Source of the DNA: Spirochaetota bacterium
GTDB lineage: Bacteria; Spirochaetota; Spirochaetia; Treponematales; UBA12059
Reading direction: 5' to 3'
Assembly: GCA_018262985.1 (NCBI GenBank)
Contig: JADFDI010000004.1
Coordinates: 1-64,000 of the forward strand
DNA: 64,000 nt
The position numbers were made by a program, and so were the translations under genes. How positions within the stretch are numbered: the first letter of the stretch is position 1; each line of letters opens with the position of its first letter. A model generated the notes under the pieces. That model was not told the DNA's origin. It saw nothing but the letters and a program-made list of their open reading frames with translations, and ran no database searches. Of the stretch, positions 4,407 through 41,647 are shown piece by piece.

Positions 4407-5261
4407 CTAGATCAGGCGCTCGAGCGCCGCGCGCATGATTCTGGGGGGAAACGAGCGCGGGAGCAAGGAAAAAAGCGCGGCCGCGAATCGGTTCCGGGCG
4501 CCGGCTATGGTCCAGGACTTCCCGCGCTCGAGGGCGCGGAGGCCGATCCGGGCCACGGTCGCGGCGTCGAGCGAGTTGGCCTCGGAGAATTTCAGGTAGG
4601 CCGGGCTTCCGATGCCGGCGTTGGCGTCGAAAGCGGTGCGCACGTAGCCAGGCAGCAGGCAACTGACGTTCACGCCGCTTCCCGCGAGCTCGGCTCGCAA
4701 GGCCAGGCTGTAGTCGAGCACGAAGGCCTTCGAGGCGGCGTACGCCGCGAAGTACGGCGTGGCCTGCAATCCCGCGAAGGAGCCCACGTTGAGGATGCGC
4801 CCGCGCCCGCGCGCTTTCATGTCGCGGCCGAAGAGCGCCGAGAGCGAGGCCAGGGCCTGCACGTTGAGGCGCAGCATGGCCTCGACCGCGGCGGGGTCAG
4901 AATCGACGGCGGCGCCGAAGACGCCGGAGCCCGCGTTGTTGACCAGGGTGTCGACGACGAGGCCGCGCGCGGCGCACTCGGCGTGGAGGCGCGAAGCGGC
5001 GCCCTGCTCCGAGAGGTCCATCGGGATGGCGAGGGACTCCGCCGCACGCGGGCCGCGGAGGGCGCCGAGGGTGGACTCGAGCCGCCCGCGGTTCCGGCCC
5101 GCGAGGATCAGGGCGTGCCCCGACGCGGCGAGTTGCAGCGCGAACTCCGCGCCGATGCCGCCCGAGGCGCCCGTCACGAGCGCGTGGCCAGAGCCGGCGC
5201 CGTCCTCGATTCCGCCGCGGCCGCCGCTCATCGTTCCGCTTCCTTTGCCCGAGGCCTTCAT
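4407..5261 (-). CDS. Short-chain dehydrogenase/reductase
   Basis: 284 aa, classical SDR fold. The NAD(P)-binding motif TGASGGIG is at residues 30-37, NNAG at 108-111, the catalytic Ser near 161 and the YxxxK pair at Tyr174 and Lys178, followed by LLPGYVRT. The C-terminus (after residue ~210) is extended and hydrophobic, ending RSFPPRIMRAALERLI, as in SDRs acting on lipid-type substrates. The start ATG at 5261 overlaps the stop of the activase gene as ATGA, so the two are translationally coupled; an internal ATG at 5231 is also possible. Coupling to a CoA-dehydratase activase hints at acyl-CoA or hydroxyacid metabolism, but the substrate is unknown. Confidence 0.85.
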   Translation of the reverse strand: MKASGKGSGTMSGGRGGIEDGAGSGHALVTGASGGIGAEFALQLAASGHALILAGRNRGRLESTLGALRGPRAAESLAIPMDLSEQGAASRLHAECAARGLVVDTLVNNAGSGVFGAAVDSDPAAVEAMLRLNVQALASLSALFGRDMKARGRGRILNVGSFAGLQATPYFAAYAASKAFVLDYSLALRAELAGSGVNVSCLLPGYVRTAFDANAGIGSPAYLKFSEANSLDAATVARIGLRALERGKSWTIAGARNRFAAALFSLLPRSFPPRIMRAALERLI

Positions 5262-8200
5262 GCGTCCACCTTTTCCGCCGCGAGCTCGCGGGCGGCCTTT
5301 ATCGCGGCCTCGGTCGCCGCGGCGACCTCGCCCGTCTCGACCACAAGGTCCGGACCGTGGTTCGCCGCCTCGACCAGGGCCGCGGCGTCGCCCTTCCCGC
5401 GGAAGCGGAGCACGTTCACCATGAAGATGGCCAGCTTGTTCACGGTGGCGGGCGGCAGCAGGTTGCCGTCCACCTCGACCGAGATGGTCGGGTAGTTCCG
5501 CTCGCGAGCCCAGGGCGCGAAGATGCCTTCGATGACGCGGCCGATCAGGCAGGCGAAGGGGCTGATGTTGACGATGCCCGAGTAGCCTTCCTCCATGGCC
5601 GTGGCCGCCACGCCGGACGAAACCGCGATCTCGGAGTTGAGCTCGAGGTCGAGGAAGTGGCGCTCGGTGTTGGCCATGATCTTCCTCATGTCGCGCGGCG
5701 CCTCGATGGTCAGGCCGGAGGGCGCGAGCGCCTTCTCCACCGAGTCCTCGACGTGGCGTTTCCAGAGTTCCTCGAGCTTGAGGCGGAGGAGCTTCTTCGC
5801 CTCCGCCGAGAAGGGCCGCTTCCACGCGGGCAGGAGCTTGAGGCGCTTCTTCAGGTCGTACTCGCGCACGAAGTCGAGGTAGTGGATCCACTCGCCGATG
5901 CCGGCGATCTTGGCCACGATGCCCTTGGCGGAGAAGAGCCCCACGAGCTCGTCCACCGCGAAGTCGTCGCGGCGCACGTAGATCTCGCCGACCACGAGCA
6001 CCTTCGGCGCTTCCTTCGGGTCGCGGGCCAGCGGGATCAGGGCCGCCTCGCGAGCGATGCGCCGCACGATGGGCAGGGCCTTCGAGACGTGCGCGCCGGC
6101 GGCTTCGATCAGGTCGTTCCAGCTGGAATCGAACCATTCGAGCGCCGCCTTCGGGTCGGCCGCGCAGGCGCGGAGCGCGTTCTGTACGTCCTTCATGGCG
6201 TCGCCGATGGCCAGGCTCCGCCATACGTCCTTCGAGAAATCGGGCCCGAACTCGTTGTAGGAATTGTCCGCGCTCATGGTGATGACCACCACGTTCTCGA
6301 GGCGGAGGTCGCGGAAGAGGTTCTCGAAGAAGACGAAGTACTGCCCCGTGCGGCAGGGCCCCGTGGTGATCGGCACGAAGAGCAGGTAGGTCTCGTCCTT
6401 GCGGTAGCGCTCCGAGAAGAAGAACTCGAGCGCCGAGCCGAGCACGATGTGGCTCGGCACGCACTCCTTGCCGGAGGCGTGGGCGCGCGCCATCTGGATG
6501 GTCTTCGCGGTGGCCACGGGCAGGGCCTCCGCCGCCACGCCCGAACCGCGCAGCACGGCGCCCATGAGCTTGGTGGAGAGGTCGCCCATGTTGGAAAGCA
6601 AGAGCTTCACCTTCGGGTTGCCGAAGAGCTCGCGGCGCTCGCCCGAGCGCGTGTCGAGCACGTGGAGCGGGGTCTTGCCGTCGTTGACGAAGCGGAGCCC
6701 GTTGTCCCAGCGCTCCTCGGAGAGCTCGCCGAGCTTGGAGCGGTAGCCGTCGATGATGTCGAGGAAGGCCTCGACGCGCGTGTCGATGCCCGCGTCCGCC
6801 GAGTGCGAGTCGAGCTCGAGCACCAGGAAGGGCTTCTGCCCCATGGTCCACTTCACGTAGTGGAGGATGAAGGAGTCCGGCGCGCAGCTGAAATTCGAGA
6901 CGAAGGCGACGAAGAGGTTCGGCTCGTCCTTGGCGAGGCGCGCGGCCTTGAGGTCCTGCTGGCCGTAGAACCAGTACATGTTCGGGAAGATGTCCTGGTC
7001 GCCGATGGGCAGGAAGTCGAAGGGCAGGATGGAATAGCCGCGCGTGCGGAACTTGAGCGGTATGCCCATGTTCGCCTCGGGCGTGAAGGCGTTGTAGGGG
7101 CGCCCGAGCAGGGCGATGACGGGCCGGGTGCCCGCGCGGATTTCCTCGAGCGCGCGCTTCCCGGTCTCCGCGGCCTTGCGGAGGTAATCCTCCTGCGCGG
7201 CCTGCGCGGCGTCGAAGGCGCGCTCGACCTCGTCCGCGCCGGCGCCGAGGCGCTCGCCGAGGGTCACGAAGTGCTCGAGCGCCTTTTTGCGGCCGAACTT
7301 GAACGACACGACGGTCGGCAGGAATTTCGACTCCGGCACGTCGGGGAAGGCCTTCTTGATGTAGTAGGGCAGCGCCTGCGTGATGGGGCAGAAGTTGGCG
7401 TGGACTTCTTCCTCGTAGCTCGGCATGTCGCGGAAGTGCGGCAGGAAGACGTAGTCCGCGCCCTTCTTGAGCGCGTCCTCGACGGCGCCGTGCGCGATCT
7501 CCGCGGGGAAGCAGTACGCGCTCTCCGCGCGCGCCACGCCGTCGTGGTCCACGGTGTCGGTCAGGAAGGTCCGCACGCCGAGCTCGTGGAAGAAGCGCGC
7601 GTAGAAGGGCCAGAGCGTGTGCACGCTGAAGGCGCGCGGGACGCCGACCGTGAAGTCGCGCTTCGCGACGAAACTGGCGGGGTCGGGCGCGCACTCGACG
7701 AACATGAGCCGTTCGCGCTCGGCCACCCAGTCGGTGGCGCCCGAGTCCGCCTTGCCCTTCCGCATGTTCGCGTACTTGGCGCAGCGGCCGCCGAACATGT
7801 ACTTCTTGCCGTCGACGTCGAGCACCTGGATGGGGCAGAGGTTCTCGCAGGCCTTGCACTGGAAGACGCGCTCGTAGCCGATCTCGCGGCCGATCAGGGA
7901 GTCCAGGTCGTACGAGCCGGATTCGAGCAGCCCCGCCCGGGCTTTCTGCCGCGCGAGCAGGGCGACGCCGAAGCAGCCCATGAGCTCGGGGGAGGGCGGC
8001 ACGAGCACGGGCTTCCCGAGCAGCGAGGCGAAGGCGAGCGGCACGGCCGGGTTCTTGGCGACGCCGCCCTGCAGGAAGACCTTGGCGCCGATGGTGCGGT
8101 TGCCCACCACGCGGTTCAGGTAGTTCGCGACGATGGAGTGCACGATGCCCGCCGTGATGTCCTCGCGGGTGGCGCCGTGTTGGACGGCCTTGCGGATGTC

Positions 8201-9625
8201 GGAGTTGATGAAGGCGCTGCAGTGCTCGCCGAACTTGAGCGGGGCCGCGGCGCGGATGGCGATGGGGCCGATGTCGGCGGCCTCGCGGATGTTGAGGTCG
8301 CCGGAGGCCGACTCCTCGAGGAAGGAGCCCGTGCCCGCCGAGCAGGCCTCGTTCATCGCGTAGTCGATCGGCACGCCGTTCTTGAGCAGCACGTACTTGG
8401 CGTCCTGGCCGCCGATCTCGAAGATCGTGTCGACGTCCTTCGCGAAGTGCGTGGTGCCGACCGAGTGCGCGATGATCTCGTTGTAGACGCCCTCGGTGCC
8501 GAGGAAGACGCCGAGGATCTCGCGCGAGCTGCCCGTGGTCGCGGCGTAGGGGATCTCGACGCGCTCGCTTCCGGTGTCGGCCTTGACCTTCGCCTTGATC
8601 TTCTCCAGGCAGAGCTTGAGCGCCTTGACCGGGTCGCCGTGCGTGCGGCCGTAGTGGCTGGCCACCACCTCGTCCGTCTCGAGGTCCACGAGGCAGGCCT
8701 TGGTGGTGGTCGAGCCGCCGTCGACGCCGAGCAGGTACTTCCGGCCCGCCACGACGGGGCCGGTCTTGCCTTCGAAATAGGTGACGAGGCGCTCCGCCTT
8801 CGAGAGGGGCTCGAGCGAGCCGAAGCCGACCGTGCCCTCGCGGAGCAGGGTCGAAGGCTCGGGGAAGGGGCTGCCCGAAGCCCGGGCGAGCAGGGCCGCT
8901 CCCCAGGCCTCGAAGTACGGCGCCTCGGGCGGCACCACGAACTCCACCTCGGGCAGCAGCTCGCGGAGGTAGCGGAGGATGTGCGGATTGCGCGTGGTGC
9001 CGCCCGCCAGGATGGCCCTTCCCTTCTCGACGCGCGCGCGCTTCAGGAAGTCCGCCACCTTGGTGGCCATGACGAGCGAGAGCGAAAGGACGATGTCGTC
9101 CTTGGTCGCCTCGCGCTTGTTGAGCCGGTGCGTGCAGTCGCTCTTCATGAAGACCGAGCAGCGGCTCGAGAGCGGCAGGGCCTTTGCCTCCGGCGACACG
9201 CGCGACACGTCGTCCAGCTCCATGTCCATGCGGGCCAGCTGCTGCTTGAAGAACTCGCCCGTGCCCGAGGCGCACTTGTTGCCGGAGAAGTTGGAGACGA
9301 TGACGCCGCGCTCGTCCACGGCGTAGACCACGAGGTCCTCGCCGCCCATCGACACGACCGCGTCGACTTTCTCGCCGGAAGCCCTGAGCGCGGCCTCCAC
9401 GCAGAGCGGCTCGATGAGGGCGGGCAGGGCGAAGAGCGAGCGGCCCTCGTTGCCGGTGACCAGGGCCTTTACGCCGAGGGGCGCGGGATGCGCTAGGAAG
9501 GCGCGGGCCAAGGCGGCCTTGAACTCGCCCTCGTGCGGCAGCACCGCGCTCCATTCGACGCGGCCGCCGTCCAGGAGGACCAGCTTGAGGCTCGCCGAGC
9601 CTATGTTGACGCCGAGACTTTTCAT
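5258..9625 (-). CDS. Giant acyl-CoA dehydratase activase (two ASKHA domains plus DUF2229)
   Basis: 1455 aa, the usual size of the large BcrAD/BadFG-type activases. The N-terminal ASKHA ATPase domain starts LGVNIGSASLK and has NKCASGTGEF at ~113. The second starts LGVDGGSTTTK at ~298 and has CSAGTGSF at ~425 and GGVAKNPAV. A DUF2229-type region with CKACENLCPI and many further cysteines follows, with HgdB-like segments to the C-terminus. In 2-hydroxyacyl-CoA dehydratases the activase uses ATP and a [4Fe-4S] cluster to inject a high-energy electron into the dehydratase; the large fused forms are widespread in anaerobes but mostly uncharacterised. No dehydratase alpha/beta subunit genes are beside it. 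The start is Met-Lys-Ser at 9625, chosen because upstream codons are unlike the family. Confidence 0.88.
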   Translation of the reverse strand: MKSLGVNIGSASLKLVLLDGGRVEWSAVLPHEGEFKAALARAFLAHPAPLGVKALVTGNEGRSLFALPALIEPLCVEAALRASGEKVDAVVSMGGEDLVVYAVDERGVIVSNFSGNKCASGTGEFFKQQLARMDMELDDVSRVSPEAKALPLSSRCSVFMKSDCTHRLNKREATKDDIVLSLSLVMATKVADFLKRARVEKGRAILAGGTTRNPHILRYLRELLPEVEFVVPPEAPYFEAWGAALLARASGSPFPEPSTLLREGTVGFGSLEPLSKAERLVTYFEGKTGPVVAGRKYLLGVDGGSTTTKACLVDLETDEVVASHYGRTHGDPVKALKLCLEKIKAKVKADTGSERVEIPYAATTGSSREILGVFLGTEGVYNEIIAHSVGTTHFAKDVDTIFEIGGQDAKYVLLKNGVPIDYAMNEACSAGTGSFLEESASGDLNIREAADIGPIAIRAAAPLKFGEHCSAFINSDIRKAVQHGATREDITAGIVHSIVANYLNRVVGNRTIGAKVFLQGGVAKNPAVPLAFASLLGKPVLVPPSPELMGCFGVALLARQKARAGLLESGSYDLDSLIGREIGYERVFQCKACENLCPIQVLDVDGKKYMFGGRCAKYANMRKGKADSGATDWVAERERLMFVECAPDPASFVAKRDFTVGVPRAFSVHTLWPFYARFFHELGVRTFLTDTVDHDGVARAESAYCFPAEIAHGAVEDALKKGADYVFLPHFRDMPSYEEEVHANFCPITQALPYYIKKAFPDVPESKFLPTVVSFKFGRKKALEHFVTLGERLGAGADEVERAFDAAQAAQEDYLRKAAETGKRALEEIRAGTRPVIALLGRPYNAFTPEANMGIPLKFRTRGYSILPFDFLPIGDQDIFPNMYWFYGQQDLKAARLAKDEPNLFVAFVSNFSCAPDSFILHYVKWTMGQKPFLVLELDSHSADAGIDTRVEAFLDIIDGYRSKLGELSEERWDNGLRFVNDGKTPLHVLDTRSGERRELFGNPKVKLLLSNMGDLSTKLMGAVLRGSGVAAEALPVATAKTIQMARAHASGKECVPSHIVLGSALEFFFSERYRKDETYLLFVPITTGPCRTGQYFVFFENLFRDLRLENVVVITMSADNSYNEFGPDFSKDVWRSLAIGDAMKDVQNALRACAADPKAALEWFDSSWNDLIEAAGAHVSKALPIVRRIAREAALIPLARDPKEAPKVLVVGEIYVRRDDFAVDELVGLFSAKGIVAKIAGIGEWIHYLDFVREYDLKKRLKLLPAWKRPFSAEAKKLLRLKLEELWKRHVEDSVEKALAPSGLTIEAPRDMRKIMANTERHFLDLELNSEIAVSSGVAATAMEEGYSGIVNISPFACLIGRVIEGIFAPWARERNYPTISVEVDGNLLPPATVNKLAIFMVNVLRFRGKGDAAALVEAANHGPDLVVETGEVAAATEAAIKAARELAAEKVDA

Positions 9626-9768
9626 GACGATGAACTCCCGTTCGCGGAAGCCGCGCCTATACGGCGCGATCAGGGCCGCAGATGGATGGCCCCGGGCCGC
9701 CGGGAACGGTGGGATTCCCGCTCGCGAACGCCAGGCCGGCTGTTTTGACGCGGCCGGGGCGCCGCCGG

Positions 9769-9797
9769 ATGCTAGCACCGCGCGATTTTACTGTAAA
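9769..9797 (-). promoter_or_regulatory. Candidate sigma70-type promoter of the activase-SDR operon
   Basis: On the minus strand TTTACA (9797-9792), a 17-base spacer and TAGCAT (9774-9769). It would give a 5' UTR of about 140 bases before ATG 9625. It lies in the 330-bp gap 9626-9956, which otherwise holds only the terminator of the precursor gene (9855-9898) and a small hairpin at 9908-9924. Confidence 0.5.
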
Positions 9798-9854: not shown

Positions 9855-9898
9855 CAAAAACAAAGCCCGGACCGGCCCCGAAAGGCTCGATCCGGGCT
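9855..9898 (-). terminator. Rho-independent terminator of the RiPP precursor gene
   Basis: On the minus strand a perfect 8-bp stem (AGCCCGGA at 9898-9891 with TCCGGGCT at 9871-9864) is followed by TTTGTTTTT. It lies 58 bases after the precursor stop. A second small hairpin with GCGGGAA/TTCCCGC arms (9908-9924) sits between the stop codon and the terminator. Confidence 0.75.
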
Positions 9899-9956
9899 CC
9901 GGCCGCGCGCGGGAAGCTTTCCCGCGGCAAGCGCCGTGCTCTACCGGTGCTTCGCG

Positions 9957-10109
9957 CTAGACGCGCACGCTGATGCTGTAGCCCTTGGTCAGCTCGGCCA
10001 CGTCGCCGAGCCGCTCGAGCTCGGGTTTCTTCCACGCCTTCTTCGGCGCCGCTTCGGGCCCGGCCTCTGCGGCGGGTGTCAGATTCTTGTTCGCTTCGAT
10101 ATGGTCCAT
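9957..10109 (-). CDS. RiPP precursor peptide with lasso-type leader
   Basis: 50 aa. The leader contains WKKPELERLGDVAELT (residues 26-41), an exact fit to the lasso leader pattern Y/W-x-x-P-x-L-x3-G-x4-L-T recognised by PqqD-like B1 proteins. The conserved Thr41 would be position -2, so B2 cleavage after Lys42 would release Gly43-Tyr-Ser-Ile-Ser-Val-Arg-Val50. This core is only 8 residues and has no Asp or Glu at position 7-9, so the normal lasso macrolactam cannot form. Two serines (45, 47) and a tyrosine are possible tailoring sites. A GAGAGG ribosome site lies 5 bases before the ATG, inside the 14-bp gap after the RCC1 lipoprotein stop, so the two are one operon. B1, B2, kinase and nucleotidyltransferase genes are divergent at 12800-16971. 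The leader call is strong; the product is inference. Confidence 0.8.
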   Translation of the reverse strand: MDHIEANKNLTPAAEAGPEAAPKKAWKKPELERLGDVAELTKGYSISVRV

Positions 10110-10123
10110 GATTTCCTCTCTTG

Positions 10124-12670
10124 TTATGGCAGCGTGACGACGGTCGGGACGAGCACGTGGCCCGGCGCGGCGGTGGTCAGGTAGAAGCTGAGGTTGGTTC
10201 CGAAAGCCCAGAGCTCGCCGGATGCATCGAGCGCGAAGGAGAGGCTGTTCCCCGCGACCGTGTCGACCCAGTTGGTGCCGGTACCGATCCTCCCGAAGGT
10301 TCGGTGCTCGTATCCGAAAGCAGGGTCGCCGCTTTCTCCGTCCCGGTTGTTGCCGGCGGACCAGAGCGTGCCGTCCGAAAGCACGGTCAGGCTGTGGTAG
10401 TAACCGAACGAGAAGCGCGACACGGTCGACCCGCTCAGGAAGCGGATGGGCACGGGCTGGTTCGTCCAGTTGTTGAATCCGAACTGGCCGTAGTATCCGT
10501 AACCCCACCCGTACATCTCTCCGGCGGCGGTCCTGGCCCAGCCGCTCGCGAAATCGGCGCCGACGCTCGCCGGCTGCCAGGCCACTCCGTCGTGGATCCT
10601 CACGGGGGAAAACTGGTCGACTGGTTCTTCAGGATATGGCGGATCATCATCGTTACCAAGGCGGCAATAAGACGCCTCGCCCCAAGTCCAGATCTCGCCG
10701 ACGGAATTGAAAGCGACGCCATAATTCTCGCCAATGTCGACGCCGACCCAGTTCGTGGCGGTTCCGATTTGCGCGGGAGCGCTGACCGTTTCTGAGCTCG
10801 TTCCATTCCCGAGCTTGCCGGTCGCGTCGGCCGTGCCCCAGACCCAGAGCGTGCCGTCGGACTTGACGCCAGCGGAGTGGCTATAGCCGGCGGCGATGTC
10901 CAGCCAGGTATCGGTCCCGACGCGGATGAAGGTGCTGGAACTCGTCGTGGAACCATCGCCGAAGGTGCCGGCGCTATTGTTTCCGGCGACGTAGAGCGCT
11001 CCGTCGTTCCGGAGCAGGAAGGCGTGCGAGCCGGAATCCGACACCTGTATCCAGGACTCGCCGGCGCCGAGCAATCCGGCCGCGGTCACGACGGGTACCA
11101 CCCGGTTCACCGAATCGCCGAGGCCGAGCTGGCCGGAGCTGTTGGAACCCCAGGCCCGGAGCGTCGTGCCGGCCGCGTCGAGCACCCAGGTCCGCAGTCC
11201 TGACGAGAAGACCTTGGCGACGCCCGAGGCGATGTTCACGGGCGAAAGCACGTCGGTATTGTAACCGAGGCCGGACTGGTAACGGTCGTTGTTGCCCCAG
11301 AACCAGGTGGTGCCGCCGGATTCCACCGCGACGGAGAAATCATCGCCGGCGGCGATCCTCGACCAGTTCGTCCCCGAACCGACCCTGATCGGAGCGGTCC
11401 GCTTGACGAGGGTGCCGTCGCCGAGCTGGCCGTAGTCGTTCGTCCCGGTAGCCCAAAGGCTGCCGTCAGTTTTTATGAACAGGGAATGGTAGTCGCCTGC
11501 CGCGAGCGCGCTGACGGTATCGCCCGAAAGGAGGAGCGTAAAAGCATTGTACGAACCGCTGGCGAAGCCGAGTTGGCCGTCCGACGACGAGCCGGCGCCA
11601 TACACCGCGCCGCTCGTCTTGATTGCGAGCGCGTGCGAGTATCCGCAGGAAACGGACTCCCAGTCCGTATCGGCGCCGACGAGAGTCGGGACATAGTGGG
11701 TGGAATAGTCTCCGACTCCCAGCTTTCCGTATGAGTTGCTGCCCCAGGCGTAGAGCCTGCCCTGGTTCGTAAGGGCGAAGCTGAAATCGCGTCCGGCGGC
11801 CACGCGCTCGAAAACCTCGCCCGCCTGCAGGGTCACGTCGATGAAGGTCGGGACGGTTCGATTCGTCATGGTACCGTCACCTATCTGGTAGCTCGAATTC
11901 CAGCCCCAGGCCCAGAGCGTGCCGTCCGAGGCGACGGCCAGGGAGTGCAGGTCGCCGGCGGCGACGTCTATCCAGGTTCCCGCGATCCTCGTCGGTACCT
12001 GGGCGGTGGTCGTGGCGCCGAGTCCCAGCGTTCCGTAGCTCGATCCCCAGCCGGACACCCAGAGGCTGCCGTCGGCCTTGAGGCCGAGCGTGTGCTGGCT
12101 TCCGCCGACCATCTTGACGTACCCGTCGGTGCCGGAGAGGACCGGTACCTTCTGGTCGGTGTTCACGCCGATTCCGAATTTGTAGCTGGAATTATCTCCC
12201 CAGAGCGTGGCGCGGCCATTGCCGTCGAGAAGCATGCTGTGGTAGGTGCCAGCGTCCAGGCCCGGGCTCGGTGTGAAGGCCACCACCGGCACCGTCACGG
12301 TGGCGCTGCCGGAGATGAGCTGGTCGAAGGTGCCGAACCAGAGGAGCTGGCCCGAGGTGTCGTAGGCGTGGGCGACGAAGGTGTAGGTGCCGCCCGTCTC
12401 GGGGATGTCGAAGATGGCGCCCCAGTATGTGGGCCCCTTGGTCAGGGCGCCGCCGCCGACCTGGGCGCCCGTGGCGCTCAGGATCTCGACGCTTACCGCG
12501 GTGACGAGCGGGTCGCTCACCACGCTCCTCGCCCCGTCGGCCTGGCCGACCACGACCTCGACGGCGGCGGACGCCGGGCTGAGGTCGGCGGCCGGAATCA
12601 AGGGAGTCCCGCAGGACACGACGAAGGCCGCGAGCACCAGGGCACCCGCCATAAGGATGGTTTTGCGCAT
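10124..12670 (-). CDS. RCC1-repeat beta-propeller lipoprotein
   Basis: 848 aa. It starts MRKTILMAGALVLAAFVVSC, a type II signal peptide with lipobox VVSC (lipidated Cys20), so it is exported and membrane-anchored. Residues ~25-150 look like an Ig-like/beta-sandwich domain. The rest consists of about 14 RCC1-type repeats of ~50 residues with the core (A-A-G-x-x-H-S-L-x-L-x-x-D-G-x-L-W-x-W-G-x-N), a number that suits two seven-bladed propellers. Aromatic and Gly/Ser-rich surface loops suggest a binding role rather than catalysis. It is directly upstream of and co-transcribed with the RiPP precursor. ATG 12670 has no Shine-Dalgarno sequence and lies only 10 bases from a good -10 box. Partner and ligand unknown. 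Confidence 0.85.
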   Translation of the reverse strand: MRKTILMAGALVLAAFVVSCGTPLIPAADLSPASAAVEVVVGQADGARSVVSDPLVTAVSVEILSATGAQVGGGALTKGPTYWGAIFDIPETGGTYTFVAHAYDTSGQLLWFGTFDQLISGSATVTVPVVAFTPSPGLDAGTYHSMLLDGNGRATLWGDNSSYKFGIGVNTDQKVPVLSGTDGYVKMVGGSQHTLGLKADGSLWVSGWGSSYGTLGLGATTTAQVPTRIAGTWIDVAAGDLHSLAVASDGTLWAWGWNSSYQIGDGTMTNRTVPTFIDVTLQAGEVFERVAAGRDFSFALTNQGRLYAWGSNSYGKLGVGDYSTHYVPTLVGADTDWESVSCGYSHALAIKTSGAVYGAGSSSDGQLGFASGSYNAFTLLLSGDTVSALAAGDYHSLFIKTDGSLWATGTNDYGQLGDGTLVKRTAPIRVGSGTNWSRIAAGDDFSVAVESGGTTWFWGNNDRYQSGLGYNTDVLSPVNIASGVAKVFSSGLRTWVLDAAGTTLRAWGSNSSGQLGLGDSVNRVVPVVTAAGLLGAGESWIQVSDSGSHAFLLRNDGALYVAGNNSAGTFGDGSTTSSSTFIRVGTDTWLDIAAGYSHSAGVKSDGTLWVWGTADATGKLGNGTSSETVSAPAQIGTATNWVGVDIGENYGVAFNSVGEIWTWGEASYCRLGNDDDPPYPEEPVDQFSPVRIHDGVAWQPASVGADFASGWARTAAGEMYGWGYGYYGQFGFNNWTNQPVPIRFLSGSTVSRFSFGYYHSLTVLSDGTLWSAGNNRDGESGDPAFGYEHRTFGRIGTGTNWVDTVAGNSLSFALDASGELWAFGTNLSFYLTTAAPGHVLVPTVVTLP

Positions 12671-12680
12671 GATGGGCGTA

Positions 12681-12709
12681 CTTATATCATGGTAGGAATT
12701 GGATTTCAA
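12681..12709 (-). promoter_or_regulatory. Promoter of the RCC1-precursor operon, nearly leaderless
   Basis: On the minus strand TTGAAA (12709-12704), a 17-base spacer and TATAAG (12686-12681). The first in-frame ATG with a signal peptide (12670) starts 11 bases after the -10 box, so the transcript would carry a 5' UTR of only a few bases. No ribosome-binding site precedes that ATG, which fits a leaderless mRNA. Confidence 0.6.
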
Positions 12710-12799
12710 CGTCGGGCCGGAAAAAGCGCGGGCCGCTTCCGCTCGCGCCACCCGGCACGCGGCTTCACGCGAGGGGGAAAAACGGATAGGATGCGCGCG

Positions 12800-13990
12800 A
12801 TGCGTCCGGAATATGCCCTCCTCGGCCGCTGCGTCGCCCTGGCGCGCGGCCTTCCGCCACGGATTCCCGCGCCCGATCCGTCCGCGCTCGACGCGGGCGG
12901 GCTGCTAGACCTTGCGGGACGGCACAAGGCGCTTGGGGACGTCCTGGCAGGGGCGAGGCTCGAACCGGGCCTGGTTCCGGACGCGGCGCTCGGACGCCTC
13001 GAGCGGGCGCACCGGGCGGGACGCGCGGCGCGCTCCACCATGCTGGCCGAGGCCATCCGCGTCTCGGCCGCCTTCCGGGACGCCGGCATCCGGCTCGTCC
13101 TGGTGAAGGGCCCGGCGCTCTCGACGCTGCTCTACGGCGACCCGCTCGCGCGGGAATACCGCGACCTCGACTTCATCGCCCGCGAGCGCGACGGGGCGAA
13201 GGTGCTGGAGCTCGCGACGTCGCTCGGGTACCGCCCGGAGCATATGCCGGCTTCACTCGGGGCCGGCACGGCGCGCTTCGCCTGGGAACGCTCGCGGCAC
13301 CTGGCCTTCCGGCACCCCGAGCTGCCGGTCTTCCTGGAGATCCACTCCGCCCGCGGCCCCCGGCTCGACTACCCCTTCGAGCGCGGGGAGGCGGCCCGGG
13401 CGCCGCTCGCGGAGCTCGCCCTCGCGGGCGGGGCCCTGAGCGCGTTCGACGCGCCGACCCAGGCCGCCCACGCCCTCGGCCACGGCACCCGCCATGACTG
13501 GATGACCCTGCAATCCGTAGGCGACGCACTCAGCATCCTCCACGGCCCGGACCGAGCGCTCGCGGAAGCGACCCGGGCGCGCCTGCGCGCCGACGGCGCG
13601 CGCGCGATGCTCGAGGCGGCGGAGCTCGTATGCGAGCGCTTCAGCGCCGGCCACGAACCGGGCGCCAAGCGCGTCGCGCCGGGCTTCGCCGCCCGCCGTT
13701 CCGCGGCGCTCGCCCTCGCGGCCAACCGCGCGCTCGGGGGACGTAAGCCTTCATCCCTCGATACGCTCAGGCGCGCCTGGTTCGGCAGGGCGCCGCTCGA
13801 ACGGAGCGTGCGTGGATATTTCCGCACCGTCGCGGGCGTGTTCGCCGTCGAACCGCAGATCGGGCTCTGGACCCCGCCCCGTCCACTCCGCTCGGCCTAC
13901 CTGGCGCTGGCCCCGTTCTTCACCGTCTACCGCAAGCTGTCGCGCCTTCTCGGCCGCGATCCGGAAGGGAGGCGGAGCCATGCCGCATGA
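12800..13990 (+). CDS. Nucleotidyltransferase-family protein of the RiPP cluster
   Basis: About 396 aa. It contains LVLVKGPALSTLLYGDPLAREYRDLDFIA, whose spaced G-x-A-x4-LYGDP and DLD elements are the signature of the uncharacterised nucleotidyltransferase family (NTP_transf_5, Pol-beta superfold) often found in lasso peptide clusters. Related genes accompany kinase-containing clusters, where they are thought to modify the phosphorylated peptide further. A later segment has AHALGHGTRHDW, also family-like. ATG 12800 was chosen because GGATAGG precedes it by about 8 bases; ATG 12791 is in frame and also possible. It is the first gene of the plus-strand operon and overlaps the next gene by 11 bases. 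Specific substrate and transferred group are unknown. Confidence 0.78.
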   Translation: MRPEYALLGRCVALARGLPPRIPAPDPSALDAGGLLDLAGRHKALGDVLAGARLEPGLVPDAALGRLERAHRAGRAARSTMLAEAIRVSAAFRDAGIRLVLVKGPALSTLLYGDPLAREYRDLDFIARERDGAKVLELATSLGYRPEHMPASLGAGTARFAWERSRHLAFRHPELPVFLEIHSARGPRLDYPFERGEAARAPLAELALAGGALSAFDAPTQAAHALGHGTRHDWMTLQSVGDALSILHGPDRALAEATRARLRADGARAMLEAAELVCERFSAGHEPGAKRVAPGFAARRSAALALAANRALGGRKPSSLDTLRRAWFGRAPLERSVRGYFRTVAGVFAVEPQIGLWTPPRPLRSAYLALAPFFTVYRKLSRLLGRDPEGRRSHAA

Positions 13991-15335
13991 CGCCTTGAAA
14001 GCCGCGCGCAGGCGCTTCTCCGCGACGACGGTCATCCTGTTCGCCGCGTTCCTCGCCTCCTGCGGGCTCTTCGAACCGCCCGGCGTCCCCGCCGACTCGG
14101 GGCTCGTACTGTCCGGCGGTCGCGTCTACGTGCTCGGCGGCTCGGCGGCCTCGGGCGATCCGCTCGCGGCGGTCCGTTCCGCGCCGGTGCTGCCGGGCGG
14201 CGCGCTCGGCGCGTGGCGGGACGAGACGCCCCTGCCGGCCCCGCGCGCAGGCGCGGCCTGGATCGAGCTCGGCGGCATGGTCTACGGATTCGGTGGCCGC
14301 GATGCGGCCGGCCCGGTTGGCGAAACGCTCTTCGCCCCCGTGAACGCGGACGGCTCGCTGGGCTTCGTGGACATGGACGGCAAGGGCTTCTGGCAAATCG
14401 CGACGGGGCTTCCGTCCTCGGAGCGTCGCGCAGTCGCAATCGAGCGCTCCGGCCGCGTTTTCCTCGTCGGGGACGGCGTTCCGGCGGCGGAGCTCCGGAA
14501 CGCCGCCATCCTCTCCGACCGATCCGTCGGGCCCTGGTCATCGGGAGCGGCGTCCGCGCCCGACGCGCCGCGCGACCCGGATTCGCGCCCTTCCGTGACG
14601 CTGCTCGAAGGCGCCTGGTACCTCCACGACGCGGAGGACGATACGCCCCTGTATTTCGAGGCCTCTGCCCTCGAGGCCCTCCCCGCGCCCTCGGTCCGGC
14701 CGCCTGCGGGACCGGCCAGGTCGGGCGAGACCATCGGCGCGACCGCCTTGCCCGGAACGACGCTCCGCTACGAAGCAGGCTCGCTCCTCTCGCCGCCGGA
14801 CGATCCGACGGCACTATCGCCGGCCTTTCCCGCGGACGGGCTTCCGATGGACTTCGATACGGACGGCAGCCGTCTACTCAAGGTCCGGGCTTTCGCGCCG
14901 GGCCTCGCGGCCTCGCCGACCGCGGTCCGCGAATGGCGGAAATGGTCCGCCACCTTTCCGACGTATTCCGACCTGGCGCTCGACGGCGCGATGCACGCGC
15001 ACGCGCTGGCGGTGGACGATTCGGAAGGCTCGACCGCGACCGTCGACCGTTGGTTCCGCCTTTCTGCGTCCGTTCCTTCATCGATCCGGCTGGAGTGGCT
15101 GGATGCTTCCGACGATCCGAGTCCCTACACGGCGTCCATATTCCTCTCGGTCGTCCACGCCGACCTCCAGACCCCCGTGCCCGACTTGACGGGCGCTCCG
15201 GTCTTCCGGCTCGGCGCCGACGGAGGGCGTTCCGTCGAGTTCACATTGCCCTCGGGCATATTCTACGTGCGCGCCGAGAGCGCCGACGGCAGCGCCGGCG
15301 GAACCTTCGGCCTCGCAGCCGCGAGGTTGCCGTAA
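13980..15335 (+). CDS. Kelch-like lipoprotein of the RiPP cluster
   Basis: 451 aa. A type II signal peptide ends VILFAAFLASC, so the mature protein is a lipoprotein. The N-terminal half carries Kelch-like repeats, for example GGRVYVLGGSA, then GGMVYGFGGRDAAG, then SGRVFLVGDG, each followed by sentences typical of Kelch motifs such as PLPAPRAGAAW. The C-terminal half resembles beta-sandwich carbohydrate-type domains, but I do not recognise it. The start is supported by GGGAGGCGG before ATG 13980. It is embedded between the nucleotidyltransferase (11-base overlap) and the kinase (next codon after the stop). It is the second predicted beta-propeller lipoprotein in this locus, which is unusual for a RiPP cluster. 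Function unknown. Confidence 0.72.
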   Translation: MPHDALKAARRRFSATTVILFAAFLASCGLFEPPGVPADSGLVLSGGRVYVLGGSAASGDPLAAVRSAPVLPGGALGAWRDETPLPAPRAGAAWIELGGMVYGFGGRDAAGPVGETLFAPVNADGSLGFVDMDGKGFWQIATGLPSSERRAVAIERSGRVFLVGDGVPAAELRNAAILSDRSVGPWSSGAASAPDAPRDPDSRPSVTLLEGAWYLHDAEDDTPLYFEASALEALPAPSVRPPAGPARSGETIGATALPGTTLRYEAGSLLSPPDDPTALSPAFPADGLPMDFDTDGSRLLKVRAFAPGLAASPTAVREWRKWSATFPTYSDLALDGAMHAHALAVDDSEGSTATVDRWFRLSASVPSSIRLEWLDASDDPSPYTASIFLSVVHADLQTPVPDLTGAPVFRLGADGGRSVEFTLPSGIFYVRAESADGSAGGTFGLAAARLP

Positions 15336-16214
15336 GTGCCCGCCTATCTTGCCTTCGGCCGCCGTTTCGAGACCGAGCTGACCCTGCCCTGGCCTCCCGC
15401 CGCCCGGCTTGCGGACGCCCTCCCGCCCGTCCGCGTTTCGCGGGTCGACCTGGCGGACGCGGTTGCGCTCCCGTTCGCGCTCGGCGCCGTCCGCTACGGC
15501 AAGGTTAACGGCAGCCTCGTCGTCGACGTGCCATGGGCCGCGCGCTTCGAAATCGCGGATCAATCCTCGATCCGCTACACCCTCGCGGCGGACGCGGACG
15601 GGCGCGCGGCCGCCGAGTACTTCTCGGGTCTCGTGGCCGGTTTCTGGCTCAGGACCGTCGCGGAGGCGGTACTCCACGGCTCCGCGGTCGAGGGACCGGG
15701 CGGAGCGTGGATTATCGTCGGCGCTTCCGGCTCGGGGAAATCCTCCGGCGCCGCGGAGCTCGCGCGTCGCGGGCATGCCCTTATGTGCGACGACTCGGTC
15801 CCCCTCGCCGCTGGCCCTACCGTCCTGCCGGGCGTCGCCATGTCGCGGCTCGGTGCGGACGGACAGGATGGCGCGGCGGGATCGGACGGCGCGGACAAGG
15901 TCGCCGTCCCGCCCTCCGCCGCGCGCCACGAGCCGTGCCGCCTCGCGGGCATCGTGCGGCTCGCCGCCGTCGACGCCGATCGGCCGGAACTCCGTCCGGC
16001 GCGCGGCGCGGCCAGGCTCGCGCTCGTCGCGCCCTTCCTGCAGTTGCTCGAAGGCGTCGACGACCGGATCATGACGCTCGCGAAGCTCGCCGGGATGCTC
16101 CCGTCCGTCCCCGTGTACGCGCTCGACCGCCCCCTGGCGGACGATACGCGCGCGGAGTGCGCGGACCTCGTCGAACGGCTCATGGAAGCACCCGACCTGG
16201 AGGAGGAGCGATGA
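15336..16214 (+). CDS. HPr kinase/phosphorylase-like peptide kinase
   Basis: 292 aa from a GTG start immediately after the preceding stop. The P-loop GASGSGKS (129-136) follows LHGSAVEGPGGAWIIV, and CDDSVPL (151-157) follows the P-loop. This is the arrangement seen in the HPr-kinase-like proteins of RiPP clusters, such as the lasso kinases that phosphorylate a C-terminal serine of paeninodin-type peptides. It has the minimal catalytic domain plus an N-terminal extension and no DRTGG domain. The gene overlaps the PqqD-like gene as ATGA. A likely target is a serine in the precursor core (Ser45 or Ser47), which is an inference from position in the cluster. Confidence 0.78.
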   Translation: MPAYLAFGRRFETELTLPWPPAARLADALPPVRVSRVDLADAVALPFALGAVRYGKVNGSLVVDVPWAARFEIADQSSIRYTLAADADGRAAAEYFSGLVAGFWLRTVAEAVLHGSAVEGPGGAWIIVGASGSGKSSGAAELARRGHALMCDDSVPLAAGPTVLPGVAMSRLGADGQDGAAGSDGADKVAVPPSAARHEPCRLAGIVRLAAVDADRPELRPARGAARLALVAPFLQLLEGVDDRIMTLAKLAGMLPSVPVYALDRPLADDTRAECADLVERLMEAPDLEEER

Positions 16215-16474
16215 CGCGAGCTCCCGAATCGGTCGTCGTGTCGAGGCTGGACGACGAGCTCGCCCTGCTCGACCGCCGCACCGGCACCTACTACGGCCTC
16301 GACGCGAACGGCGCGAGGATCTTCGAACTGGCGTCGAAGGGATACGATCCCGGCCGCATCGCCCGGGAACTCGCCGCGGAATTCGACGCCCCGCCCCCGG
16401 AGATCGAGCGCGACGCGGCCGAGCTCGTGGCGAAGCTGCTTGAAGCGGGACTGCTCGTGGACGACGGCGCGTGA
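16211..16474 (+). CDS. PqqD-family leader-binding protein (lasso B1-like)
   Basis: 87 aa, the full length of a stand-alone PqqD-like RiPP recognition element. Characteristic pieces are LDDELALLDRRTGTYYGLDANGARIFEL, here as ALLDRRTGTYYGLDANG around residues 18-34, then a helical C-terminus with the LxxAGLL ending. B1 proteins bind the leader peptide (YxxP motif) through a beta-strand and deliver it to the B2 peptidase. A strong AGGAGGAG site precedes ATG 16211, which overlaps the kinase stop; its own stop overlaps the B2 start as GTGA. Confidence 0.85.
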   Translation: MTRAPESVVVSRLDDELALLDRRTGTYYGLDANGARIFELASKGYDPGRIARELAAEFDAPPPEIERDAAELVAKLLEAGLLVDDGA

Positions 16475-16971
16475 CGGCAATCCACGGATCCCTCGCGAAG
16501 CTCCGTCGCGCAGCGAGGCGGGCGCTCGCCGATCCGACCCTCGCGCTCGAGGCGCTCACGATGGCCGTCCTCATGGCGGCCTTCCACGCGGCGCTCCGAG
16601 CGCGATGGCGGCCCCGGCTCGAGCCGGACGGCGCCGCCGGCGGCCGGCCTCCGTCCCCGCGCGCCCTCGCGCTCGCCCGACGCCTCGCCGCGGCCTGCGC
16701 CGCCGCGACCGCCCTCGCGCCCGGATCCTTCACCTGCCTGCGGCGGGCCCTCGCGCTCCGGACCCGGCTCCGCGCCAAGGGGCTCGACGGGCGCCTCGTC
16801 CTCGGCGCGCGCCGCGGGGCCGGAACCGGCATCGAGGCGCACGCCTGGGTCGAGCTGGGCGGCGTCGCGCTCGACCCGGCCGCGGACGCGAACTTCGCCC
16901 CCTTCCTCCCCGCCCCCGTTGCCTCCCCCGCCCCCGGATCGCTATTTTCTCTTCGTCCCCGACACCCATAA
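16471..16971 (+). CDS. Lasso-type B2 leader peptidase (transglutaminase-like fold)
   Basis: 166 aa. The catalytic triad of lasso B2 cysteine proteases is visible: Cys89 in SFTCLRRALAL, His124 in EAHAWVEL and Asp135 in VALDP. Length and order match stand-alone B2 proteins, which cut the leader two residues after the conserved Thr. The N-terminal ~45 residues include a hydrophobic helix. The GTG start overlaps the B1 stop by four bases. The C-terminal tail beyond residue 140 is low-complexity (Pro/Ala), and the promoter of htpG lies inside it. The usual third partner, an asparagine-synthetase-like cyclase, does not follow; the next gene is htpG, 20 bp away. Confidence 0.82.
   Translation: MTAIHGSLAKLRRAARRALADPTLALEALTMAVLMAAFHAALRARWRPRLEPDGAAGGRPPSPRALALARRLAAACAAATALAPGSFTCLRRALALRTRLRAKGLDGRLVLGARRGAGTGIEAHAWVELGGVALDPAADANFAPFLPAPVASPAPGSLFSLRPRHP
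16919..16948 (+). promoter_or_regulatory. Candidate htpG promoter
   Basis: TTGCCT (16919-16924), an 18-base spacer and TATTTT (16943-16948), inside the 3' end of the B2 gene. ATG 16992 follows with GAGGAG as ribosome site. No CIRCE-type inverted repeat is visible. Confidence 0.4.
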
Positions 16972-16991
16972 CCATCACGAGGAGCGACCAC

Positions 16992-18845
16992 ATGGCCGTA
17001 CGCAAATTCAAGGCGGAAGTGAACCAGCTGCTCCGCCTCATCATCCACTCGCTCTATTCACACAAGGAGATCTTCCTCCGCGAGCTCGTCTCGAACGCGT
17101 CCGACGCCATCGACAAGCTGCGCTACCTGGCGGCCTCCGACGAGGCCTACAAGGGCGTTTCCTTCGAGCCGCGGGTCGAGATCGGCTTCGACGCGGAGAA
17201 AAAGACGCTCTACGTGGAGGATAACGGCATCGGCATGGACGAGGAGGACCTCGACGCCAACCTCGGCACCATCGCCCGCTCGGGCACCAAGCGCTTCCTC
17301 GAGGCCCTCTCCGGCGACGCCCGCAAGGAATCGAACCTGATCGGCCAGTTCGGAGTCGGCTTCTACGCCAGCTACATGGTCGCGTCGAAGGTCGAGGTGC
17401 TGAGCCGCAAGGCCGCCACCGACAAGGCCTTCAGGTGGACTTCGGACGGCGAGTCCGGCTACTCCATCGAAGCCGCGGAACGCGCGGGCCACGGCACCAC
17501 GGTCACGCTCCACCTGAACGACGAGGGCGCGGAATTCCTTTCGCGCTGGCGCCTCGAGGAGCTCGTCAAGCGCTACTCGAACCACGTCGCCTTCCCCATC
17601 TTCCTCCGCTACGAGCAGCCGGAATACGACGACAAGGGCAAGAAGAAGGGCTCGGAGGAGAAGGTCGAGCAGGTGAACTCGGCGGCCGCCCTCTGGCGCC
17701 GGCCGAAGTCCGAGCTCGCGGAGCAGGACTACAAGGACTTCTACAAGAATTTCGCCGACACCGACGAGGAGCCGCTCTTCTGGATCCACACCAAGGCCGA
17801 AGGCACCATCGAGTACACGACGCTCTTCTACGTGCCCTCGAAGGCTCCCTTCGACCTCTACCGCGCCGATTACAAGCCGGGCGTCAAGCTCTACGTCAAG
17901 CGCGTGTTCATCACCGACGACGAGAAGGAGCTCCTGCCGACCTGGCTCCGCTTCGTGCGCGGCGTCATCGACTCCGAGGACCTGCCCCTCAACGTCAGCC
18001 GCGAAATTCTCCAGCAGAACCGCGTCATGACGAACATCCGCTCGGCCTCGGTCAAGAAGGTGCTCTCCGAGCTCAAGGACCTGGCCGCGCGCGACCCGGT
18101 CCTCTACGGCAAATTCGTCGAGCAATTCAACCGCCCGCTCAAGGAGGGGCTCTACTCCGACTGGTCCCACCGCGAGGAGCTGCTCGAGCTGGTGCGCTTC
18201 AAGAGCACCGCGGTGGACGGCTGGACCAGCCTCGCCGACTACAAGACCCGCATGAAGGACGGCCAGAAATCCGTCTTCTTCCTCGCGGGCGACGAGGAGG
18301 AGCGCCTCCGCAAGAGCCCGCTCCTCGAGATGTACCGCAAGGAGGGCACCGAGGTGCTCATCTGCGGCGACGAGATCGACGAGATCGTCGTGCCCGCCAT
18401 CGGGCGCTTCGGCGAGCTCGAGCTCAAGGCCGTCAACCGCGCGGACGCCGCCAAGGATTTCGAGGGCAACAAGGACAAGGAAAAGGAGAAGGAGCTCGCG
18501 CCGGTCGTGGAACGCGTCAAGAAGGCGCTCGGCGATGCCGTCAAGGACGTGCGCCTGACCGGCCGCCTCGCGGAGAGCCCCTCGTGCGTGGTGGTCGACG
18601 AGGACGATCCGAGCCTCCGCCTCCAGCTGCTCATGAAGGCCATGGGCCAGGGCTCGGGCGTCGAGTCGAAGCCCATCCTCGAGCTGAACGGCTCCCACGC
18701 CCTCGTCTCCGGCCTCGCGGGCGCGGACGACGCGCGCGTCGAGGACGCGGCGAAGGTGCTGCTCGGCGAGGCCCTGCTCGTCGAGGGCGTCCCCCTCCAG
18801 GACCCCGCCGACTTCGTCGCGAGGATCAACCGCCTCTTGAAGTAA
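16992..18845 (+). CDS. htpG: Chaperone HtpG (Hsp90)
   Basis: 617 aa, near the family length of ~620. The GHKL ATP site is clear: LVSNASDAIDKLRY near residue 35, DNGIGM near 80, GTIARSGT near 95 and IGQFGVGFYASYMVA near 118. The middle domain has LPLNVSREILQQ with the catalytic-loop Arg/Gln region. The C-terminal dimerisation domain is complete. It acts as a cytosolic homodimeric ATP-dependent folding chaperone. It follows the RiPP operon by 20 bp on the same strand, so read-through is possible, but it has its own candidate promoter and GAGGAG site. A role of HtpG in the RiPP pathway is not implied by sequence. Confidence 0.97.
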   Translation: MAVRKFKAEVNQLLRLIIHSLYSHKEIFLRELVSNASDAIDKLRYLAASDEAYKGVSFEPRVEIGFDAEKKTLYVEDNGIGMDEEDLDANLGTIARSGTKRFLEALSGDARKESNLIGQFGVGFYASYMVASKVEVLSRKAATDKAFRWTSDGESGYSIEAAERAGHGTTVTLHLNDEGAEFLSRWRLEELVKRYSNHVAFPIFLRYEQPEYDDKGKKKGSEEKVEQVNSAAALWRRPKSELAEQDYKDFYKNFADTDEEPLFWIHTKAEGTIEYTTLFYVPSKAPFDLYRADYKPGVKLYVKRVFITDDEKELLPTWLRFVRGVIDSEDLPLNVSREILQQNRVMTNIRSASVKKVLSELKDLAARDPVLYGKFVEQFNRPLKEGLYSDWSHREELLELVRFKSTAVDGWTSLADYKTRMKDGQKSVFFLAGDEEERLRKSPLLEMYRKEGTEVLICGDEIDEIVVPAIGRFGELELKAVNRADAAKDFEGNKDKEKEKELAPVVERVKKALGDAVKDVRLTGRLAESPSCVVVDEDDPSLRLQLLMKAMGQGSGVESKPILELNGSHALVSGLAGADDARVEDAAKVLLGEALLVEGVPLQDPADFVARINRLLK

Positions 18846-37538: not shown

Positions 37539-37567
37539 GACCGTGAAATCATGAGCGTTTCTATAAT
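37539..37567 (+). promoter_or_regulatory. Candidate promoter of the rnf/nqr operon
   Basis: A perfect TATAAT -10 box (37562-37567) with a weak -35 (GACCGT) 17 bases upstream. It lies about 90 bases before the GTG start of rnfD, whose ribosome site is AAGGAG. Confidence 0.5.
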
Positions 37568-37655
37568 TTTTTACCCGCCCCGTTGCCCAGGCGCGCGGGA
37601 CGCCTATACTTTTGTCAGCGATATGGGAGGCTCCCTTTCCCAAGGAGATGGAAAC

Positions 37656-38603
37656 GTGTTCCAGAAACAACCGTTGATGCGGAAGGTGCTCTGGGCCCTG
37701 GCGCCGATCGGGCTGTACTCGATCTGGGCCTACGGGCTCCGGGCGCTCGCGGTGGCCGCCGTGACCTTCGCGGTCGGCGTCGGCGTCGAATGGCTCTTCG
37801 AACGCAAGAAAGGCGGAAAGACGAGCGAGGCCGTCCTCGTGAGCTGCGCCCTCTACGCCCTGTCCATGCCCCCCGCGGTGCCGCTGTGGATCGTCGCGCT
37901 CGGCATCGCCTTCGGCGTGTTCATGGCCAAGGAAGTCTATGGCGGCTTCGGGCGGAACGTGTTCAACGTGGCCATAGCCGGGCGCCTCTTCGTCTACATC
38001 TCGTTCGCGGGAGCGCTCGGCGCCTCGTGGCTGCCGCACGGCGGCTTCGGCATGGGGGCGGGAAACCTGTTCGGCCCGGTCGACGCGTACTCGGGCGCCA
38101 CGCCGCTCGAGCTCATGCGGACCGGCGGGAGCGTGCCGATCCTCGACCTCTTGCTCGGCCTCAGGGACGGCACCCTCGGCGAGGCTCCGATCGTCCTCAT
38201 CCTGGCCGCCGCCGTCTACATGGCGGCGACCAAGACGGCGAACTGGAAGCTCATGGTCGCGACGGCGGCCGGCGGCCTGGCCGCGGCGGGCGGCCTGCTC
38301 CTCGCGGGCGTCGCCAAGGCCCTGCCCCTCGAGAGCCTGCTCGCGGGCAGCTTCCTCTTCGTGGCGGTCTTCATGGCGACCGACCCGGTTACCGCCCCGA
38401 AGAAGGCCCCGGCCCAGTGGGCCTACGGCCTCCTCATCGGCGCGGTCGCGGTGGTCATCCGCACCTTCAGCCTTTTCCCCGAGGGCACCAGCTTCGCAAT
38501 CCTGATCGGCAACTCCTTCGCGAGCCTCTTCGACCGCATGGCGGCCGACGCGGCCGCCCGGAAGAAGGCGCGGGCCGCCACGGCCGCGGGAGGCGCGGCA
38601 TGA
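37656..38603 (+). CDS. rnfD: Rnf/Nqr-type subunit D/B (flavinylated membrane subunit)
   Basis: 315 aa, closer to RnfD (~320-350) than NqrB (~400). Six to ten membrane helices are visible. The covalent FMN attachment motif is DAYSGATPLE with Thr149 as the phosphoester site. The conserved VFNVAIAGRLFVY-type and FMATDPVTAPK segments are also present. It forms part of the membrane path for electrons and ions in Rnf/Na+-NQR complexes. The GTG start was chosen for its AAGGAG site. First gene of a five- to six-gene operon; overlaps rnfG as ATGA. Confidence 0.9.
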   Translation: MFQKQPLMRKVLWALAPIGLYSIWAYGLRALAVAAVTFAVGVGVEWLFERKKGGKTSEAVLVSCALYALSMPPAVPLWIVALGIAFGVFMAKEVYGGFGRNVFNVAIAGRLFVYISFAGALGASWLPHGGFGMGAGNLFGPVDAYSGATPLELMRTGGSVPILDLLLGLRDGTLGEAPIVLILAAAVYMAATKTANWKLMVATAAGGLAAAGGLLLAGVAKALPLESLLAGSFLFVAVFMATDPVTAPKKAPAQWAYGLLIGAVAVVIRTFSLFPEGTSFAILIGNSFASLFDRMAADAAARKKARAATAAGGAA

Positions 38604-39891: not shown

Positions 39892-39902
39892 GGAGGAAGG
39901 GC

Positions 39903-40505: not shown

Positions 40506-40515
40506 GGAGGACGCC

Positions 40516-41637: not shown

Positions 41638-41647
41638 GGTGAAGGCC

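Follow-up and report, generated by a model that had tools for sequence, protein, structure and literature searches.

A cyclase-free system in which LppK polyphosphorylates serine of the core peptide was published in May 2026 for the linear polyphosphorylated peptides (LPPs; Popov et al. 2026, PMC13381572). Their leader peptidase LppS is signal-peptidase-I-like, their leaders carry the motif YxxPxVLxHQxIxFETxxS, they have been reported from Bacillota only, and the sole characterised LPP has a core of 45 amino acids (aa) (PMC13381572). Kinases and nucleotidyltransferases also belong to the lasso peptide clusters of paeninodin and pseudomycoidin (A-B1-B2-C-K-N), and with PsmK/PsmN of pseudomycoidin serine is phosphorylated and hexoses are added (review PMC9266682). 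The LPP paper describes the biological function of paeninodins and of LPPs as unknown (PMC13381572). Here we describe a gene system for a ribosomally synthesized and post-translationally modified peptide (RiPP) on the bacterial contig JADFDI010000004.1 (assembly GCA_018262985.1). The analysed stretch, called the window in the following, comprises the first 64 kb of this 381-kb contig, and the genome is 3.4 Mb in size and 99.8% complete.

The system consists of seven genes in two tight divergent operons. The minus-strand operon encodes an RCC1 lipoprotein and the precursor peptide, and the plus-strand operon (12791-16971) is a five-gene set in the order nucleotidyltransferase-Kelch lipoprotein-HprK-like kinase-B1-B2, with htpG as the next gene. 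This gene system is real and is present in ten related bacterial genera. Our preferred reading, towards which the evidence tips slightly, is that the two operons produce a short linear RiPP and, alongside it, a lipoprotein as its partner, and that the peptide is delivered to the N-terminal domain (N-domain) of this lipoprotein in the envelope. The features of the locus are as follows.

9957..10109, minus strand: precursor peptide, 50 aa (NF033521 lasso_leader_L3 match; alignment with relatives)
10124..12670, minus strand: RCC1-repeat lipoprotein, 848 aa, lipobox VVSC (PF00415, 12 repeats, 256 bits, over the curated cut-off)
12278..12571, minus strand: N-terminal domain of the partner lipoprotein within the RCC1 lipoprotein, predicted seven-stranded beta-sandwich (alignment; profile 94 bits)
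12791..13990, plus strand: NTP_transf_5 nucleotidyltransferase, the same kind of gene as PsmN/LppN (PF14907, 95 bits, cut-off 31.2)
13980..15335, plus strand: Kelch-family lipoprotein, 451 aa, LASC lipobox, its start overlapping the nucleotidyltransferase stop
15336..16214, plus strand: HprK-like kinase (PF07475; conserved residues)
16211..16474, plus strand: B1, PqqD-like RiPP recognition element (RRE) (PF05402, 55 bits, cut-off 23.4)
16471..16971, plus strand: B2, transglutaminase-like leader peptidase (NF033537, 51.4 bits, cut-off 33)
9856..9899, minus strand: intrinsic terminator 3' of the precursor gene (stem and T run)

Like the LPP systems, this system combines a discrete RRE, an HprK-like kinase, an NTP transferase, an exporter (in relatives) and a [Y/W]xxP leader with the absence of a macrolactam cyclase, and by analogy its product is presumed to be linear and phosphorylated. 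It differs from them in the leader peptidase, as B2 stands in the place of LppS (none of the seven window-operon genes is signal-peptidase-I-like, and the relatives keep B2), in an aligned leader without the LPP motif, in predicted cores of 7-11 aa versus 45, in having a Kelch lipoprotein and a lipoprotein gene beside every precursor, and in a phylum that is apparently not Bacillota. With the paeninodin/pseudomycoidin lasso clusters it shares the same kinds of B1, B2, kinase and nucleotidyltransferase and a [YW]xxP leader with penultimate Thr, whereas a C protein, a Gly1 with Asp/Glu7-9 and, in the window core, a C-terminal Ser are all missing, and lipoprotein partners are present. An HprK-like kinase beside a PqqD-like chaperone is also the hallmark of the NCBIfam families HprK-rel-A and PqqD_rel_X (TIGR04352/TIGR04353), but the window kinase scored 21 bits against a cut-off of 200 and B1 27.4 against 35. 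Nothing relevant was found in the openly licensed literature on lasso-like loci that lack a cyclase and involve lipoproteins, Kelch proteins or Spirochaetes. A first-pass annotation of the window had proposed a new class of product, a short linear phosphorylated or nucleotidylated peptide. This survives in so far as related loci of nine genera also lack a lasso cyclase, but a cyclase-free RiPP with kinase and nucleotidyltransferase is already precedented by the LPPs (PMC13381572), and what is new here is the lipoprotein partner.

Precursors, modifying enzymes and the search for a cyclase

The window precursor (MDHIEANKNLTPAAEAGPEAAPKKAWKKPELERLGDVAELTKGYSISVRV), whose ATG is preceded by the ribosome-binding site AGAGGAAATC, was the sole NF033521 lasso_leader_L3 match in its own genome (24.4 bits, cut-off 19; runner-up 11.2 bits). 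Its leader carries the motif W-K-K-P-E-L...G....T, and the predicted core GYSISVRV follows T-K. A lasso leader of the form YxxPxL...G....T-x, B1 and B2 are all present at the window locus, and B1 also scored 53.6 bits with NF033530, under the cut-off of 70 of that model. The catalytic residues of B2, kinase and nucleotidyltransferase were invariant across five aligned sequences, namely the triad Cys89/His124/Asp135 in B2 and HGSA, the P-loop GKS and CDD in the kinase, and the nucleotidyltransferase motifs KGP, R..DLD and HG..H.W were kept in five loci. His, P-loop Lys and Asp-Asp are the residues given for lasso-tailoring kinases (PMC9266682) and are all held by the window kinase; a profile of the kinase matched HPr kinase structures among PDB sequences (1e-8). 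The precursor with a lasso leader, the PqqD-like B1, the B2 with a Cys-His-Asp triad, the HPr-kinase-like enzyme (as a weak PF07475 match with its key residues kept) and the nucleotidyltransferase, all named in the first-pass annotation, were thereby recovered.

The same annotation had seen no asparagine-synthetase-like cyclase in the window, and this holds genome-wide. No lasso cyclase was found in the window genome, where the single PF00733 match is GMP synthase, nor in the nine relatives carrying the whole system or part of it, which were searched in the same way, and none lies on the locus contigs. Four of these relatives (G242, G612, G620 and G640) encode an ordinary AsnB on contigs other than that of the locus, with 750-890 bits to PRK09431 and 115-128 bits to the lasso cyclase model NF033535 (cut-off 525). 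Another four (G375, G393, G406 and G535) yielded weak fragments only, and those that were read are PP-loop enzymes (GuaA, NAD synthetase) by sequence; G434 has one short Asn-synthase fragment on another contig, left without further classification. A scan of genome contigs with B2 returned only a Chloroflexota locus, which is an ordinary lasso locus with a cyclase of 806 bits. This positive control indicates that the search was able to detect a cyclase where there is one.

Precursors were collected by a search for small open reading frames (ORFs) and then with a precursor profile, giving 17 in total (one in the window, four each in G375 and G242, five in G393 and one each in G434, G406 and G612). 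In the draw across the phylum, the precursor profile matched in four genomes, and these are the same four whose B2 exceeds the cut-off. The precursors have the leader pattern [YW]xxPx[LIVA]...G in common, the window precursor in the Trp form and most relatives in the Tyr form. Their predicted cores are 7-11 aa long (e.g. GYSISVRV, DWDVSLG, YTVSVTAQ, TSSFDLSTGV), and each of the 14 distinct cores contains Ser or Thr. The Asp or Glu that serves as lasso acceptor at core positions 7-9 was found in none of the 14 distinct cores and in none of the 17 precursors. Judged by two defining features, the macrolactam cyclase and a core that combines Gly/Ala/Ser/Cys at position 1 with Asp/Glu at 7-9, the locus is not of the lasso peptide type. 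The motif [FWY]-x-[VILN]-[ST]-[VLT] is present in 15 of the 17 precursors and 12 of the 14 distinct cores; it was picked after the data were seen, and in comparison to the 12 observed, shuffling gave an expectation of 0.35 and a maximum of 4 in 5000 shuffles. Judged from sequence, this motif is a candidate phosphosite. All five cores of G393 are near-identical (YTVSV[TQ]A[QSN]), and the two copies of YTVSVQAS among them are the only cores of the 17 that end in Ser.

Partner lipoproteins and their N-terminal domain

A lipoprotein gene adjoins the precursor gene on the same strand in 17 of 17 cases, the precursor being located immediately upstream in 16 and immediately downstream in the window; the start of a gene in the G612 pair is uncertain. 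The paired lipoproteins share an N-domain of approximately 100 aa, which was recognised in 15 of the 17 by leave-one-genome-out profiles and in the window RCC1 lipoprotein with 49.6 bits by a model containing nothing from the window genome. The C-termini of N-domain lipoproteins vary between RCC1 (the window and two in G375, where these RCC1 lipoproteins also pair with precursors), Lcl_C, FGE-sulfatase, alpha-amylase and unassigned regions. Among 374 genomes of the phylum draw the N-domain was confined to genomes with the RiPP system, except for one 29-bit fragment in G068, which was set aside as its contig is without the system. The link between peptide and lipoproteins suggested in the first-pass annotation is hence stronger than was apparent then, with gene pairing in all 17 cases, but the pairing is with the N-domain lipoprotein, RCC1 in the window, whereas the Kelch lipoprotein goes with the enzymes. 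The gene pairing suggests that the peptide may be captured or displayed by the lipoproteins.

Of the two propeller lipoproteins annotated at first, one in each operon, the RCC1 protein was clear. The Kelch assignment is firm for the family and weak for the window protein alone, judged by sequence: the family profile matched Kelch structures (1e-13) and the window protein is 26-31% identical along its length to four orthologues, whereas on its own it scored 19.4 bits against the curated cut-off of 25.3. A complete Kelch propeller is not assured in the window because this copy is about 70-130 aa shorter than its relatives. A single-sequence AlphaFold2 (AF2) model of the Kelch protein was discarded (predicted local distance difference test, pLDDT, 36). 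Both lipoprotein kinds of the system are tied together in G375 (L110:1885-4530), where an 881-aa lipoprotein consists of the partner N-domain fused to a Kelch-family region, with no precursor in front. In G393, a second Kelch-family lipoprotein lies beside a precursor-lipoprotein pair near Kdp potassium-transport-like operon genes (L042:3224-8732), and a second N-domain protein with no clear precursor of its own lies near another such pair (L074:146-1375).

For the N-domain, AF2 without an alignment predicted a seven-stranded beta-sandwich (pLDDT 75). In comparisons of this model (12251-12610) with VIA-align, CBM20 starch-binding domains ranked at the top (Z 8-10, up to 9.8; for 1cqy Z 9.4 over 86 aa at 2.3 A), and other Ig-like domains were also close. 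A Foldseek search with the model gave no match below E 0.001, and PDB sequence searches with the N-domain and nucleotidyltransferase profiles returned nothing informative. The predicted fold is a weak hint at a sugar-binding-like sandwich. One partner lipoprotein of G393 has an alpha-amylase domain, which together with a CBM20-like N-domain would be a possible link to glycans. The idea of donor-strand complementation, that beta-strand-like cores fit their own N-domain better than shuffled versions of themselves, found no support (p<0.05 in 1 of 16).

Distribution and genomic context

Of the 23 genomes examined in the own family, one has a B2 over the cut-off, as do 4 of 393 genomes drawn across the phylum; B2-like matches in G163 and G396 were set aside as they are sub-cut-off and stop-interrupted with no cassette nearby. 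The whole cassette is present in four genomes (G000, G375, G242 and G393, twice in G242), and in the last three the same nucleotidyltransferase, Kelch lipoprotein, kinase and B1 surround B2. The Kelch-family profile added six genera that hold the cassette or pieces of it. These encode B2-Kelch-kinase (G434), lipoprotein-nucleotidyltransferase-Kelch (G406), nucleotidyltransferase-kinase-B1-B2 beside Kelch (G640), precursor-lipoprotein-Kelch-kinase in a single run (G612), and Kelch with an N-domain or similar lipoprotein (G620 and G535). In total the system or parts of it occur in 10 genera from at least seven families of the phylum, which judging by gene content is probably Spirochaetota. Among these ten genera, the genome search for the gene combination with scoring of the cyclase, as had been advised at first pass, yielded no lasso cyclase. 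Relatives encode exporters: G242 has an ABC exporter without peptidase domain directly past B1, G375 has an ABC exporter gene near the cassette, and in G393 a MATE gene overlaps B2. The lack of an ABC exporter recorded in the first-pass annotation is therefore true of the two window operons and the scanned ORFs but is no general trait of the system.

The two operons are real because the plus-strand genes overlap or abut (neighbours abut or share 4-11 nt) and a strong terminator follows the precursor, where a 76-nt stretch has a folding energy of -47.7 kcal/mol (z -3.4) and no shuffle was equally stable. The precursor gene begins 14 nt beyond the RCC1 lipoprotein gene in the same minus-strand operon. 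The gene htpG (16972-18845) lies directly 3' of B2 on the same strand and might be co-transcribed; relatives have other neighbours here. Downstream of the precursor-operon terminator lies a 1506-aa ORF (5258-9778) resembling a fusion of 2-hydroxyacyl-CoA dehydratase activase and dehydratase. Elsewhere in the window, an Rnf electron-transport-like gene cluster (37551-42088) includes an RnfD/NQR2 match (37551-38600).

Proposed pathway and alternative explanations

In the proposed pathway B1 would bind the leader via [YW]xxPx[LIVA] and present it, as is established for its family. The HprK-like kinase would phosphorylate the conserved Ser/Thr of the core, in the window most likely the second Ser of Y-S-I-S-V, and the NTP_transf_5 enzyme might extend or cap the phosphate, perhaps with a sugar like PsmN. 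B2 would cleave the leader after Thr-Lys. The resulting product of 7-11 residues is probably linear because there is no cyclase, as in the LPPs, and would be exported by a transporter whose gene is adjacent in relatives and unlinked here. In the envelope the peptide would meet the lipoprotein of the adjacent gene, most likely through the N-terminal beta-sandwich that these lipoproteins share, while the C-terminus of this partner would provide an interchangeable glycan-binding or enzymatic part (RCC1 here). The Kelch lipoprotein, made together with the enzymes, may be a general assembly or attachment factor.

Several observations weigh against this reading. The kinase is weak against HprK families (31.5 bits with PF07475, just below the cut-off of 33.3), the cores of G406 and G612 deviate from the candidate phosphosite motif, and the C-terminal Ser of paeninodin is missing, the window core ending in Val. 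The paired lipoproteins L042 and L076 miss the N-domain profile once their own genome is left out. N-domain lipoproteins without precursor make up three of seven in G375 and one of five in G242, and so the lipoprotein can exist without a peptide of its own. Moreover, six genomes have cassettes that are split or ended by contig boundaries, and no exporter was found near the window locus among the two operons and further scanned ORFs, which cover part of the window ORFs.

Up to five precursors with near-identical cores occur in one genome, each beside a different lipoprotein, and this arrangement is easier to explain by a peptide supplied together with its lipoprotein than by a toxin or a broadcast signal. 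For this reason we prefer a reading in which the peptide is delivered to the N-domain of the lipoprotein. As a tentative extension of this reading, each modified peptide could serve its partner lipoprotein as a dedicated component, structural or chemical, that is attached to the N-terminal beta-sandwich at the cell surface by one-to-one binding or by a covalent bond.

That the linear phosphorylated peptide is secreted as a signal (pheromone), for which the lipoproteins would be receptors or else unrelated operon cargo, appears unlikely. A short linear peptide, exporter genes in relatives and a paired envelope protein would suit a signal, and the several near-identical peptides per genome (five in G393) could be one signal from several loci, but there would be no need for a separate precursor beside each of four to five structurally different lipoproteins in a genome, and the conserved cassette includes no regulator or sensor kinase. 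An antimicrobial peptide with lipoprotein immunity partners is very unlikely: the combination of RiPP, exporter and dedicated lipoprotein and the patchy occurrence, with one carrier among 23 genomes of the own family, are in line with it, but near-identical cores face unrelated lipoprotein C-terminal domains within one genome, and large multi-domain lipoproteins (amylase, FGE, RCC1) are unlike known immunity proteins. We give even less weight to the possibility that the enzymes act on the lipoproteins and that the small peptide serves only to recruit or license them as a leader-in-trans adaptor; the tight one-to-one gene pairing and the very short cores could be explained in this way, but the cores are motif-conserved with Ser/Thr, as for a substrate, and the leader peptidase B2 is conserved. 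Least probable is a degenerate lasso cluster, either bereft of its former cyclase or using one encoded elsewhere, whose product would be a lasso or nothing, since despite leader, B1, B2, kinase and nucleotidyltransferase as in paeninodin-like clusters, the ten genera have no lasso cyclase (GMP synthase, PP-loop enzymes or AsnB only, bar the G434 fragment), the cores lack the acceptor residue, and intact active sites and tightly coupled genes give no sign of decay.

The system extends cyclase-free, lasso-derived RiPP biosynthesis past the Bacillota, and the leader peptidase it uses is a different one. Further systems can be sought with the N-domain profile and the 17 precursors. One lipoprotein gene per precursor gene is a hint at the function of the peptide, and a role in the envelope becomes testable; the pairing suggests a type of partnership between peptide and protein that has not been described before. 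If the peptide were indeed part of the lipoprotein, the system would furnish lipoproteins of the cell surface with an oligopeptide of ribosomal origin that is phosphorylated or glycosylated.

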